Source: a virus. Taken from it: a stretch of DNA of 20,972 bases. A program made the position numbers and the translations under genes. The stretch lies in the IMG/VR virus record IMGVR_UViG_3300013136_000054, positions 1 to 20,972 of that record, one strand, 5' to 3'. Below are positions 14,428 through 20,217 of the stretch, one piece after another (position 1 is the stretch's first letter; every line of letters begins with the position of its first letter). The notes under the pieces are model-generated. The model searched no databases. It was not told the DNA's origin and worked only from the letters and a program-made list of their open reading frames with translations.

Positions 14428-14496
14428 GTGAAGATAGTTCAATGGTAGAACACTGCTGCAGCAAATATAGGAGTTAAACTCTCCTTCTTCACACCA
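14428..14496 (+). tRNA. tRNA-like gene with shortened anticodon region, CCA encoded
   Basis: Acceptor GTGAAGA/TCTTCAC (14428-14434/14486-14492), discriminator A and encoded CCA (14494-14496). D-arm GTTC/GAAC with the AATGGTA loop, T-arm AGGAG/CTCCT with loop TTAAACT. Between D- and T-arms there are only 17 bases, against about 22 in a normal tRNA. The sequence there (CTGCTGCAGC) could present a GCA (Cys) anticodon but cannot form a 5-bp anticodon stem. At most TGC/GCA pairs around a TGCA loop. It is either a defective tRNA-Cys or a tRNA mimic. Confidence 0.5.
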
Positions 14497-14540: not shown

Positions 14541-14969
14541 ATGAAGCACTTGAAAGATATAAAAAGTTGGAAAGAATGTATAAACGAGATTATTTGTGGA
14601 GATTGCTTAGAGGGAATGAAATCGATTCCTAATGACAGTATCGATCTCGTTTTAACAGATCCACCGTATGGAATGAACTATCAGTCCTCCTGGAGGACTG
14701 ATAAATTTGATAAAATAGAAAATGACGACAATCTTGAATGGATAGAACCATTTTGTAAATCTATTTATAGAATCTTAAAAGATAATTCCCACACCTATAT
14801 TTTTTGTAATGAATATACTATTGGGGATTTAAGACTATACTTAAAAAATGCTGGATTTGTGTTGAAAAGAATGCTTGTTTGGGTCAAAAATAATCACACG
14901 AGTGGAGATTTAGAGGGTGATTATGGCAATAAAACTGAATACATAATCTATGCTCACAAAGGCAGGAGG
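14541..14969 (+). pseudogene. DNA methyltransferase (beta class), N-terminal half, split by IS607-like element
   Basis: 143 codons to the insertion point, then a TAG supplied by the element. Motif IV DPPY is at residues 40-43 (LTDPPYGMNY), preceded by the usual CGDCLEGMKSIPNDSIDLV. The helical region RILKDNSHTYIFCNEYTIGDL and FVLKRMLVWVKNN are target-recognition and core segments. The order, motif IV before motif I, is that of beta-class N6-adenine/N4-cytosine methyltransferases. The SAM-binding half lies at 16323-16589. Alone this half lacks motif I and should be inactive. Confidence 0.88.
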
Positions 14970-15022
14970 TAGTAACTGCTTACAAAAACCCTACAATATC
15001 CACAGAAATCGGTTAAAAACAC

Positions 15023-15051
15023 TTGCTTTTTATTATTAAATAACCTATAAT
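15023..15051 (+). promoter_or_regulatory. sigma-70 promoter of the IS607-like element
   Basis: TTGCTT (15023-15028), 17-bp spacer, TATAAT (15046-15051). The ATG at 15056 begins only five bases after the -10 box, so the first mRNA would be leaderless or nearly so. Confidence 0.75.
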
Positions 15052-15055
15052 TGAT

Positions 15056-15250
15056 ATGAAGATAACAAAAATAACAAAAGAGTATTATGAGGTTGAAGGA
15101 GAAAAAGTTTACTTCTTCGAGCCCTTAGAAAGGGTCATATCCATAAAGGAATTACAGAAGATTATGGATACGGTGGAACAGGATTTGCTGGCGGTTAAAA
15201 GTAGGAGAGTCAGTGCTAAGGAAGTTGTTAATAAATTAAAAGATAAATAA
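15056..15250 (+). CDS. element passenger protein, 64 aa
   Basis: A short beta-type N-terminus (KITKITKEYYEVEGEKVYFFEPLERV) is followed by a helix-rich C-terminus (IKELQKIMDTVEQDLLAVKSRRVSAKEVVNKLKDK). No known motif. It is first in the element's operon, probably leaderless, and ends one base before the next start. A helper for recombination, a regulator of the recombinase, or unrelated cargo are all possible. Confidence 0.65.
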   Translation: MKITKITKEYYEVEGEKVYFFEPLERVISIKELQKIMDTVEQDLLAVKSRRVSAKEVVNKLKDK

Positions 15251-15251
15251 T

Positions 15252-15728
15252 ATGAATAAACTACTAGAACCAATAAATTACTTTGGAAAAGTCAGCATCT
15301 CCTTTGATGATATTAACGGAAAGATTGTAGGGCGTTTAGCTGACAAAGGTATTTGTTTTTCTCTTAAAAAACCAGAGTATTTCTTTTGCCCACATTGTAA
15401 AACAACTAATTTTGACAATGTAAAGGAAGAAAGGATTGATGGAGAACCAGAAATAAAATCAATCGCTTATGGAATGGGTTTCGCAGACACTAAATATGGC
15501 AAAAGTTATGTGCCTATAATGGACGGAGATAAAAGCCGAGATTATCCAGTATCATTTAAGTATTTTTGTGAAAATTGTCGGAACGAATTTACAAAACCAG
15601 AGTTAATGGAGGCGTTAAATGAGAGGGATAAAGTTTTTGAAAAAGAGAAAACAAACAAAATTATAGCTATATTGAAAGCGTTAAACGCCAAACCTTATGA
15701 AAATATACAAAATAACCGAAGCGAGTAA
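15252..15728 (+). CDS. element passenger protein with zinc ribbon, 158 aa
   Basis: C46-x2-C49 (FCPHCK) and C106-x2-C109 (FCENCR) enclose about 55 residues, an interrupted zinc-ribbon arrangement. The C-terminus is helical and charged (EALNERDKVFEKEKTNKIIAILKALN). Its last 32 bases overlap the recombinase gene in another frame, suggesting coupled translation. It occupies the position where TnpB would be expected in many IS607-family elements but shows no RuvC motifs and is far shorter. Function unknown. Confidence 0.65.
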   Translation: MNKLLEPINYFGKVSISFDDINGKIVGRLADKGICFSLKKPEYFFCPHCKTTNFDNVKEERIDGEPEIKSIAYGMGFADTKYGKSYVPIMDGDKSRDYPVSFKYFCENCRNEFTKPELMEALNERDKVFEKEKTNKIIAILKALNAKPYENIQNNRSE

Positions 15729-16314
15729 ATATCTCGGCATAAGCATAAATTCGTTAAAGACACTGGCGAATAACGGCAAATTAAATTCTTTCAAAACAAG
15801 CGGTGAACACAGAAGATTCAGAGAAGATGACCTTGATGCTTATATGGGAGTCAAGAAAGAAAAACAAGAACGCCTAACAGTAATTTATGCCAGATGTTCT
15901 ACCGCCAAACAGAAAGAAAACTTGGAAAGGCAAAAAGACAGACTAAGAAAACACGCTGAAGAAAAGGGATACAAGTATTTGATGATAGACGAAATAGCAA
16001 GCGGAATAAACGAGAAACGCAAAGGCATACATAAACTGATTAAGATGTGTTTTGAGGGAAAAGTTGAACGGGTTTTAATTGAATATAAAGATAGGCTGGC
16101 AAGATTTGGATATGAATACTTGGACGCAATTTTTAGAAATTTAGAGATTATTGTTGAAGTAGTAGAAATTAAAGAAAAGAAATACGAAGAGGAGTTAGCT
16201 GAAGATATTATGAAGATTCTTACTTGCTACTCTGCCCGATATTATGGGGCAAGAGGCGGTCGAAAGAAGAAAAATGAGCAACAAAATGAACCCAACGAAT
16301 CTAATGGAATTTAA
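15697..16314 (+). CDS. tnpA: IS607-family serine recombinase (TnpA)
   Basis: 205 residues. Residues 1-50 are a MerR-type helix-turn-helix (YKITEASKYLGISINSLKTL, then SGEHRRFREDDLDAYM). Residues 60-190 are the small serine-recombinase domain: YARCST with the catalytic Ser at 68, QKENLERQ, and KDRLARFG at 131-138. The basic tail GARGGRKKK is typical. An N-terminal DNA-binding domain before the catalytic domain is diagnostic of IS607 transposases. All visible catalytic-domain motifs are intact, so the element may be active. Confidence 0.93.
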   Translation: MKIYKITEASKYLGISINSLKTLANNGKLNSFKTSGEHRRFREDDLDAYMGVKKEKQERLTVIYARCSTAKQKENLERQKDRLRKHAEEKGYKYLMIDEIASGINEKRKGIHKLIKMCFEGKVERVLIEYKDRLARFGYEYLDAIFRNLEIIVEVVEIKEKKYEEELAEDIMKILTCYSARYYGARGGRKKKNEQQNEPNESNGI

Positions 16315-16322
16315 AAAGGAGG

Positions 16323-16589
16323 ATTCTAAGCGGAAACAGGGCTGTAAACGTCTTGAATTACCCCAGGGGTGAAAATTTAAAACATCCGACCGAAAAACCT
16401 CTACAAATCATAGAATTTTTAATGCAAAAAAGCAGTAAAGAGGGCGATTTAATCTGCGACCCCTTTATGGGAAGTTGGACAACTGCTAGAGCTTGTAAAG
16501 ACATGGGTAGAAACTTTATAGGATTTGAGATAAACGAAAAATATTGCAAAATTGGAACTGAGCGACTTAGGCAAGAAAATCTATTTTAG
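16323..16589 (+). pseudogene. DNA methyltransferase (beta class), C-terminal half
   Basis: 88 codons in frame with the N-terminal half once the element is removed. It contains NYPRGENLKHPTEKPLQIIE and motif I DPFMGSWTTARACKDMGRNFIGFEI. The canonical motif is DPFxGSGTT; here the second Gly is Trp (TGG), which is likely to damage SAM binding and could reflect decay after the split. Translation from the in-frame TTG at 16353 could at most make a 78-residue fragment. Confidence 0.85.
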
Positions 16590-17403: not shown

Positions 17404-17856
17404 TCAATTCAAAATCATATGTGCGCTTCCAGTGATTGCATGATACCGAGTAATCGAAGCTCTATCGCCAAACCATGGGTCTATAATCTTATATCGTCCA
17501 AACCAATTCTTGCCAATGGCAACAACCCAGTGATAATGATCTACTTCTAGGATGACGGCTTTTTTCGGGTCTTGCAACGAAATGTCTATCTCTGGATCAT
17601 TTTCGCCATATAATCTTTTTTCGAGACGAAATTGTGTCGCCTTCGATAGAGAACCCCAGATAATCAATCCATCAGCAGTGAAATCTAATTTCTGTCCGAG
17701 CTGATCCGGACTCTTCCATGAGCCGTCGAATTTTGTAAAATAATCGGTGAGCATGGATAAGCAGGTAATAGTACAGCCATATCTACCTATTTGATAGGGT
17801 GAATTACCCAGGGATGCAGAGGCCCACTTCGGATCACGTTGACATAGATTAAGCAT
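17404..17856 (-). CDS. C39-like (papain-fold) cysteine peptidase, candidate lytic or host-interaction enzyme
   Basis: 150 residues from ATG at 17856; the in-frame start at 17892 lies upstream of the predicted transcription start and is less likely. Catalytic-type Cys28 (GRYGCTITCLSM), His109 (DHYHWVVAIG) and Asp126 (IIDPWFG) follow the peptidase C39-like order. There is no signal peptide or ABC-transporter fusion. Short C39-like proteins occur as phage lysins and as secreted peptidases. It is the only convincing minus-strand gene in the window, with its own promoter, so it may be expressed apart from the lytic operon. Confidence 0.72.
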   Translation of the reverse strand: MLNLCQRDPKWASASLGNSPYQIGRYGCTITCLSMLTDYFTKFDGSWKSPDQLGQKLDFTADGLIIWGSLSKATQFRLEKRLYGENDPEIDISLQDPKKAVILEVDHYHWVVAIGKNWFGRYKIIDPWFGDRASITRYHAITGSAHMILN

Positions 17857-17882
17857 TTTTATATGGGTTAATGATATTTTTG

Positions 17883-17910
17883 ATGATAACACAATTACAG
17901 TTTAATGCAA
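17883..17910 (-). promoter_or_regulatory. promoter of the C39-like peptidase gene
   Basis: On the minus strand TTGCAT (17910-17905), 16-bp spacer, TATCAT (17888-17883). Transcription would start near 17876, about 20 bases before the ATG at 17856. Confidence 0.55.
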
Positions 17911-19038: not shown

Positions 19039-19869
19039 ATGAATTTACAAAAAATTATTGAAAAATGTCAAAAATCTAAAAAATGGACTGAGCTTGAAGA
19101 ATACTGCTTAACTCCCGAATTTCAAAATCTCGGTTATGTTGAGAAAAACAAACATTTTATTACCAGTTCAAAATTAAAAGATTTTGAAAAATGCCAGCTT
19201 ACCTACAAGCTCAAGCATGTAGACTTAATTCCGGATCCGACAGAGAAGGAAGCAGACTATTTCATTGTTGGAAGGGCATTAGACGATCTTCTAACTTACG
19301 GACAGGACTACTATCAATCTACATACGAAACAGTTGCTAGACGCAACGAAAAGGCCCAAAAAGTACAGCTCACCAATACGATGTCAAAATTGATTGATCA
19401 GATGCATCATGAATTTAAAAATCAAACCGTTTTTGCGCCAAATCCAAAAAAGAAAGTATTTTTTCATGAGGTAGCAGGCTTTATTCTCAAGGCTGAAATG
19501 GATGATTATGAGAATGGCATAATTAGAGATATAAAAACCACAGCTAATATTTTAACTTTTGATCCGAAAGATTATGAATTGCAAATGAGTTTCTATCATT
19601 GGTTAGTCGAAGAAAATACAGGCATGAGGCCACGAGTCTTTCTCGAAGTCGTGGACAAATATACACATTTTTCAAGATCAAAAATGATTGAATATAGTGA
19701 AAATTGCCTCTTGGGAAAAAGAGCGGAATTATTATCTCTATTAGAGAAACTCCGAGAAGCACATGATCTTAATATTTTTATTCGATCAAATATTGAGCAA
19801 ATAGTTTTCAATTCTCCTTATTATGGCCATCCACAATATGGTCGATGGACAGAAACACAAATTTATTAA
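19039..19869 (+). CDS. PD-(D/E)XK exonuclease, RecE/Cas4-like partner of RecT
   Basis: 276 residues. ITSSKLKDFEKCQLTYKLKH is the N-terminal motif of PDDEXK_1/RecB-like nucleases. The active site is ILKAEMDDY (Asp155), IIRDIKTT (D164-x-K166) and the YELQMSFYHWL motif (Gln182, Tyr186). It starts six bases after the recT stop, so the two are co-expressed as an end-resecting exonuclease and annealing protein. The C-terminus lacks an obvious iron-sulfur cluster Cys set. Confidence 0.85.
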   Translation: MNLQKIIEKCQKSKKWTELEEYCLTPEFQNLGYVEKNKHFITSSKLKDFEKCQLTYKLKHVDLIPDPTEKEADYFIVGRALDDLLTYGQDYYQSTYETVARRNEKAQKVQLTNTMSKLIDQMHHEFKNQTVFAPNPKKKVFFHEVAGFILKAEMDDYENGIIRDIKTTANILTFDPKDYELQMSFYHWLVEENTGMRPRVFLEVVDKYTHFSRSKMIEYSENCLLGKRAELLSLLEKLREAHDLNIFIRSNIEQIVFNSPYYGHPQYGRWTETQIY

Positions 19870-19877
19870 AAATAGTT

Positions 19878-20186
19878 ATGAACGCAATACAACTACGGAC
19901 TGGATGGGAATGGAGCGAGAGCTGGAGCTGGAGCGGGAGCAGGAGCGGGAGCTGGAGCGTGAGCAGGAGCAGGAGCAGGAGCAGGAGCGAGAGCTGGAGC
20001 AGGAGCGAGAGCTGGAGCGAGAGCGGGAGCGGGAGCGGGAGCAGGAGCGGGAGCAGGAGCTGGAGCAGGAGCGGGAGCTGGAGCGTGAGCAGGAGCAGGA
20101 GCAGGAGCAGGAGCGAGAGCTGGAGCGAGAGCGGGAGCGGGAGCGGGAGCTGGAGCTGGAGCAGGAGCTGGAGCAGGAATATTTAA
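19878..20186 (+). CDS. low-complexity Ser-Trp/Arg/Gly/Glu repeat protein, 102 aa
   Basis: After MNAIQLRTGWEW the whole protein alternates Ser with W, R, G, E or V (SWSWSGSRSGSWSVSRSRSR...). The ATG follows AAAAATAGTT, exactly the leader used by the gene at 20571, which favours this frame. The same DNA is also open in the frame that starts at 19823 and would encode E-[L/R/Q] repeats; the third frame has stops. In that other frame the CGG/CGA/CGT variants are all Arg, which is a counter-argument. Function unknown. Confidence 0.55.
   Translation: MNAIQLRTGWEWSESWSWSGSRSGSWSVSRSRSRSRSESWSRSESWSESGSGSGSRSGSRSWSRSGSWSVSRSRSRSRSESWSESGSGSGSWSWSRSWSRNI
19912..20177 (+). repeat. GGAGCN hexanucleotide array, about 44 units
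   Basis: Near-perfect tandem hexamers (GGAGC plus T, G or A, with a few GAGCGA/GAGCGT variants). A block of about 50 bases containing GCGTGAGCAGGAGCAGG recurs in the array, pointing to segmental duplication. It is purine-rich (G/A) on the + strand and very GC-rich against its neighbours. Confidence 0.95.
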
Positions 20187-20217
20187 ATTTTAACCAATAA
20201 ATCTTAACTAAATAACC

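Follow-up and report, generated by a model that had tools for sequence, protein, structure and literature searches.

An IS607-type element without TnpB in a phage methyltransferase gene, and a putative family of virus-borne gene cassettes

The viral record IMGVR_UViG_3300013136_000054, whose full stretch of 20,972 nucleotides is referred to here as the window, contains a phage DNA methyltransferase gene that is split by a 1,353-bp IS607-type element without TnpB. This locus raises the question of what type of mobile element is involved, and which role is played by the two small genes, orf64 and orf158, that precede its transposase gene tnpA. Comparison with related viral sequences indicates that the element very probably belongs to a virus-borne family of IS607-type transposons that lack TnpB and serve as mobile gene cassettes.

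The element and its insertion site

The element, its components and the interrupted gene are located in the window as follows.

14967..16319 (equivalently 14965-16317; 1,353 bp), + strand: whole element, with family-conserved ends; its joined flanks restore the methyltransferase frame, ungapped versus the homologue L140
14965..14966, strand not applicable: left exchange core GG; GG is found here in 26 of 31 family insertions, a GG target being the IS607 rule (PMC6188088)
16318..16319, strand not applicable: right exchange core GG, read from the sequence; GG also follows the family right ends
14967..15055, + strand: left end (AGGTAGTAACTGCTTACAAAAACCC...), family-conserved in a comparison of left ends
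15023..15051, + strand: promoter-like TTGCTT-17-TATAAT just 5' of orf64, read from the sequence; the first hexamer matches at 3/6 positions only
15056..15250, + strand: orf64, 64 aa, conserved small family gene (residues 1-42 conserved)
15252..15728, + strand: orf158, 158 aa, gene in the cargo slot of the window copy, zinc-ribbon-like with two CxxC pairs; 32-bp overlap with tnpA
15697..16314, + strand: tnpA, IS607-family serine recombinase, 205 aa, HTH and Resolvase domains
16290..16319, + strand: right end (GAATCTAATGGAATTTAAAAAGG), overlapping the tnpA 3' end and stop codon, from a comparison of ends
14541..14972, + strand: 5' part of the interrupted N6/N4 DNA methyltransferase, reaching a TAG in the left end (PF01555 positions 1-108; alternatively delimited as 14541-14969)
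16320..16589, + strand: 3' part of the interrupted methyltransferase (PF01555 positions 150-219; alternatively delimited as 16317-16586), ungapped versus L140 across the junction

The three ORFs are placed as in the initial annotation, including the overlap of exactly 32 bases (15697-15728) between orf158 and tnpA, and the assignment to a TnpB-less IS607 type was confirmed. TnpA scores 180.5 bits with the NCBIfam IS607 equivalog NF033518 (cut-off 110), displays the IS607 domain order of HTH_17 (4-50) followed by Resolvase (62-192), and has the ISC1926 TnpA as its closest solved structure (by sequence, as best PDB match). No PF07282 match indicative of TnpB was found in the window record, nor within the element in 24 related records. 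Both tnpA and orf64 are under purifying selection, with a dN/dS of approximately 0.03 between the window and its relative L129. The element lacks terminal inverted repeats (8 of 20 terminal positions match; the longest inverted match is 7 bp), and the promoter-like sequence was rated as weak because a consensus scan did not report it. An Rfam scan detected neither a group I intron nor any further RNA family inside the element; outside of it, just upstream of the interrupted methyltransferase, the scan reported a tRNA gene (14428-14493; 51 bits) for which ARAGORN gave no call.

The boundaries 14970-16322, as annotated initially, were indeed GG-flanked and are 3 bp off the actual ones, a shift that falls within the ambiguity of the cut position, since AGGAGG stands at both element ends (14964-14969 and 16317-16322). 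The core GG at 14965-14966 and 16318-16319 agrees both with L140 and with a family member's empty site, described below. Excision of the element in silico yields ...YAHKGRRILSGNRAV... and restores the methyltransferase frame at this core; the joined gene aligns without gaps to L140, an uninterrupted methyltransferase of another virus (56% identical), and from this alignment we infer that the window element made no target duplication. The window copy would have inserted into an AGGAGG inside the methyltransferase gene and broken that gene. A core at the second left-end GG, with the element starting TTnTAAC, was rejected, because the real empty site lacks the additional AGG that such a core would require. 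A search of the collection for an element-free form of the window's own virus returned none.

Organization of the family

Related contigs were gathered from IMG/VR using tnpA, orf64, an orf64 alignment and left-end DNA. The searches with tnpA, orf64 and the orf64 alignment, combined with the genome search, gave 95 contigs, 52 of which hold both orf64 and tnpA, 25 orf64 only and 18 tnpA only; in the latter two groups, some elements are truncated by the end of the contig, and a few weak matches have no element ends. Family size can be put at approximately 90 metagenomic virus contigs. Weak orf64 matches without element ends (L068, L069 and L123) were kept out of the evidence. An exact-pattern scan recovered the left end in 52 stretches of IMG/VR.

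The family layout is constant. The left end and orf64 come first and are followed by at least one cargo ORF; tnpA starts inside the 3' end of the last cargo ORF, and its stop codon lies at the right end GAATCTAATGGAATTTAAAAAGG. The window copy shares these traits, having the conserved ends, orf64, and a cargo that overlaps the tnpA start. The arrangement did not arise by chance, as the same two ends and the same two genes, orf64 and tnpA, are seen in many other virus contigs and purifying selection acts on both genes. The suggestion of a new element type holds: judged from its genes and ends, the family is a distinct IS607-type element, without the usual tnpB and with tnpA placed last. It is apparently undescribed; no description was found in the literature searched, whose coverage is without most subscription journals and preprints.

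Content and exchange of the cargo slot

The cargo is of a DNA-modification type in 66 of the 67 contigs with classified cargo, a count in which 13 PAPS-reductase-like proteins are included by their similarity to SspD of phosphorothioate systems only, and in which near-duplicate contigs are present, so that the numbers are not independent events. Representative cargo proteins were classed by their matches in Pfam, PHROGs and PADLOC, and BLAST clustering carried the classes over to the others. Besides the PAPS-reductase-like proteins, the slot holds N6/N4 methyltransferases (20), MT-A70 proteins (16), members of phrog_757, another phage DNA methyltransferase family (5), C5 (4) and D12 (4) methyltransferases, Mom (3) and Dam (1). 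L029, L055, L091, L104 and L112 each carry two or three consecutive modification genes. The 67th contig is the window, with orf158.

This enrichment has close to an even chance of being a by-product, in which any gene can enter the slot and viral selection retains the useful ones, without specialization of the element. The presence in slots of genes other than modification genes, namely orf158, YopX, an unclassified 338-aa protein in L114 and NUMOD3 proteins, fits such an explanation. Against it stand the proportion of modification-type proteins encoded around the elements, where they account for 3 of 146 ORFs of the same loci (approximately 2%, compared with 66 of 67 in the slot), and the fact that other useful phage genes are hardly found in the slot. 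The NUMOD3 proteins (L034 3409-3999; L112 5953-6552; L115 4791-5381; L132 3400-3999) are located between cargo and tnpA, with a weak REase-like (MTES_1575) match, and may represent a homing-type nuclease in the slot. In L184 (1146-2543) a family left end is followed by genes resembling by eye QueE of the 7-deazaguanine pathway and GTP cyclohydrolase, possibly a further DNA-modification cargo; its right end was not found.

Cargo type is out of step with the tnpA tree. The tnpA genes of L014 and L130 are 97.1% identical at the nucleotide level, with an MT-A70 cargo in one and an N6/N4 methyltransferase in the other; those of L026 and L027 are 95.0% identical, with PAPS reductase versus MT-A70; and those of the window and L129 are 92.2% identical (92.4% from tnpA to the right end), with orf158 versus YopX and MT-A70. 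Pairwise DNA homology is confined to two blocks, from the left end to orf64 and from tnpA to the right end, and extends neither into the cargo nor into the flanks. Cargo has thus been exchanged, since near-identical tnpA genes (95-97% at the nucleotide level) are associated with unrelated cargos in unrelated flanks. The simplest mechanism would be replacement of the cargo by homologous recombination between the conserved modules that flank the slot.

The two small genes

The initial annotation had treated the 64-aa and 158-aa genes alike, as regulators, accessory factors or cargo. The two are not equals: orf64 is a conserved family gene, and orf158 can be assigned as cargo, because it is confined to the window virus and lies in a slot that holds DNA-modification genes in relatives. 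Likewise, the expected recurrence of both genes with tnpA applies to orf64, and not to orf158, which was seen only in the window and in one record identical to it. Single-sequence patterns in IMG/VR, together with searches of isolate phages, plasmids, PDB, Pfam, PHROGs and PADLOC, gave no homologue of orf158, and none was found among 380 genomes of one candidate host phylum, in a search without a positive control. The CxxC pairs of orf158 are at residues 46-49 and 106-109. A structure model of the protein gave no useful information (mean pLDDT 38), and the NCBIfam profile ECs_2282_CxxC was set aside, as it matched 17 residues below its cut-off. The protein matches no modification enzyme, the sole exception in this respect among the classified cargos; its position and length in the slot suggest that it is a functional gene.

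It is unlikely that orf64, or less likely still orf158, provides an element function, for example as an accessory recombination factor or regulator, and is not cargo at all. The conservation of orf64, the purifying selection acting on it and its position before nearly every cargo in the family favour such a function. Orf158, on the other hand, is missing from all relatives, where the slot holds enzymes, and L192, with a cargo and both ends, has neither orf64 nor tnpA; orf64 is therefore not in every copy, although it may have an element function. The model of orf64, at a mean pLDDT of 78.7, predicts three strands plus one helix, and a structure search with it returned no significant match. The idea that the small genes might be widespread in phages without tnpA was not borne out: none of 50,697 isolate phages gave a match to orf64, and most contigs without tnpA look like the same element after truncation, decay or loss of tnpA.

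Mobility and target choice

A pattern scan identified a single clean pair of an empty and a filled site, in the same virus population. Contig L142 (empty) and contigs L094, L096 and L097 (filled) have flanks that are 99.7-100% identical and differ by 1,068 bp, joined at GGAGG. Between its left and right ends this 1,068-bp element carries orf64 and an SspD-like cargo, without tnpA. The insertion produced no target-site duplication, as L142 equals the joined flanks with a single shared core; the AGGTTA end that belongs to the element accounts for the longer GGAGGTTA shared in this pair. No tnpA was found elsewhere in the L094, L096 and L097 records, which may be fragments of viruses that have a tnpA in another place. 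Because the filled copy of this pair lacks tnpA, as do L102 and L192, tnpA-less copies are likely mobilized in trans. TnpA, in cis or in trans, would catalyse both the excision of the element and its insertion at a GG core, with no duplication of the target.

Among 31 distinct sites, for whose tabulation the right-junction GG was part of the search pattern, GGRGG is present at the right junction in 21, compared with 2.8% of the GG dinucleotides in the flanks, and GGRGG with an ATG 3-12 bases downstream is present in 15, compared with 0.66%. A separate comparison of family right ends found the right GG in nearly all of them. The left core is without GG at five of the 31 left junctions, which probably reflects a tolerated core mismatch. 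Insertion thus appears to favour the GG of a GGAGG located 5' of a start codon, a bias that may partly come from the survival of harmless insertions rather than from target choice.

According to the proposed mechanism, the element would preferentially enter GGAGG ribosome-binding sites at the GG, in sense orientation, and entry at the first GG would leave a Shine-Dalgarno sequence ahead of the downstream gene. Since the left end begins with AGG and the right end finishes with AAAAA before the core GG, the downstream gene would regain its Shine-Dalgarno sequence and the cargo would join the operon.

These target sites also bear on whether the element acts as a switch that regulates the methyltransferase, with precise excision restoring the gene. 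Its location inside a methyltransferase whose frame is restored by precise loss, together with IS607 insertion without target duplication (PMC6188088), would suit a switch; this is very improbable all the same, as the relatives are found at unrelated sites, about half of them at a Shine-Dalgarno sequence before an ATG, and an excised form of the window virus was not found.

Going beyond the cassette family as such, it is conceivable, at somewhat less than even chance, that virus-specialized IS607-derived transposons, inserting at ribosome-binding sites while sparing the operon, form a shared, shuffling pool of phage DNA-modification genes, and that orf158 is a new anti-restriction or DNA-modification factor, betrayed by its position in the slot. 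The usual DNA-modification cargos would most simply provide an escape from host restriction and could help viruses to evade bacterial defences. If this is right, phages own a dedicated mobile cassette to gain and swap DNA-modification genes, which would help to account for the patchy spread of such genes among related phages; the insertion preference would represent an unusual case, in which a transposon is directed to translation signals and reconstitutes them on landing; and the slot would offer a guilt-by-position route to new anti-restriction genes, with orf158 as the first.

A left-end-like stretch of 27 bp is located just upstream of a gene for a 551-aa protein, polymerase-like by eye, in a group of related phages (L149, L161, L167, L188 and L189). 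The same 27 bp, which look like the scar of an old insertion, are also present in L178, L185 and L191.

Comparison with known mobile elements

The family resembles IS607 elements (IS607, ISC1926, IS1535) in its serine-recombinase TnpA with N-terminal HTH, its GG core, and the lack of terminal inverted repeats and of target duplication. IS607 targets a GG core, makes no target duplication and requires only tnpA for transposition (PMC6188088). In contrast to IS607, the family has no tnpB, its tnpA is last instead of first, and orf64 and an exchangeable cargo precede tnpA. Four IS607 elements inspected in isolate phages have tnpA first, overlapping a gene of approximately 1.1-1.2 kb downstream in the tnpB position. 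A very improbable explanation is that an ordinary IS607 element lost tnpB, which would be tolerable for an element that needs only tnpA (PMC6188088), and once captured two unrelated phage genes by accident: orf158 is unique to the window virus, but the orf64-cargo-tnpA order and the ends recur in many contigs with varied cargo, and the 25 family records hold only two TnpB genes, both outside the element.

IStrons, which combine an IS with a group I intron (PMC4227781), are similar in joining an IS607-type transposase to extra cargo that alters or reduces the cost of insertion, whereas the window element has no intron or RNA family inside. Phage integron gene cassettes (PMC9892861) are likewise mobile, changing single genes in phage genomes; unlike these, each family element has its own left and right ends and usually its own transposase. 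Passenger-gene transposons also combine a transposase with cargo, but the present family differs from them in having one fixed slot in a small element, a DNA-modification bias, and a distribution nearly confined to viruses.

Distribution and possible hosts

Members of the family are hardly seen in cellular genomes and not at all in isolate phages. A pattern search of 84,980 genomes, which covers close relatives only, gave six matches, all in MAG contigs; a search for orf64 in 380 genomes from the phylum to which one of these MAGs belongs detected it in that same MAG only. Within the 50,697 isolate phages, the best tnpA was 37% identical. The nearest relatives of the window tnpA include the MAG contigs L129 and L130, labelled Gracilibacteria and Patescibacteria, and these labels give a weak hint of a host of this type for the window virus.

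Elsewhere in the window, positions 17404-17892 (- strand, with neighbours on the other strand) encode a Peptidase_C39-like protein just under the Pfam cut-off, and positions 19845-20200, preceding a gene for a 116-aa protein, are highly repetitive coding sequence (ELERE..., or SWSWSGSRSG... in another frame) that may be a hypervariable tract. A short repeated coding motif (KSVSDNATI...) was also observed near the family element of the Gracilibacteria MAG contig L129 (142-1026).
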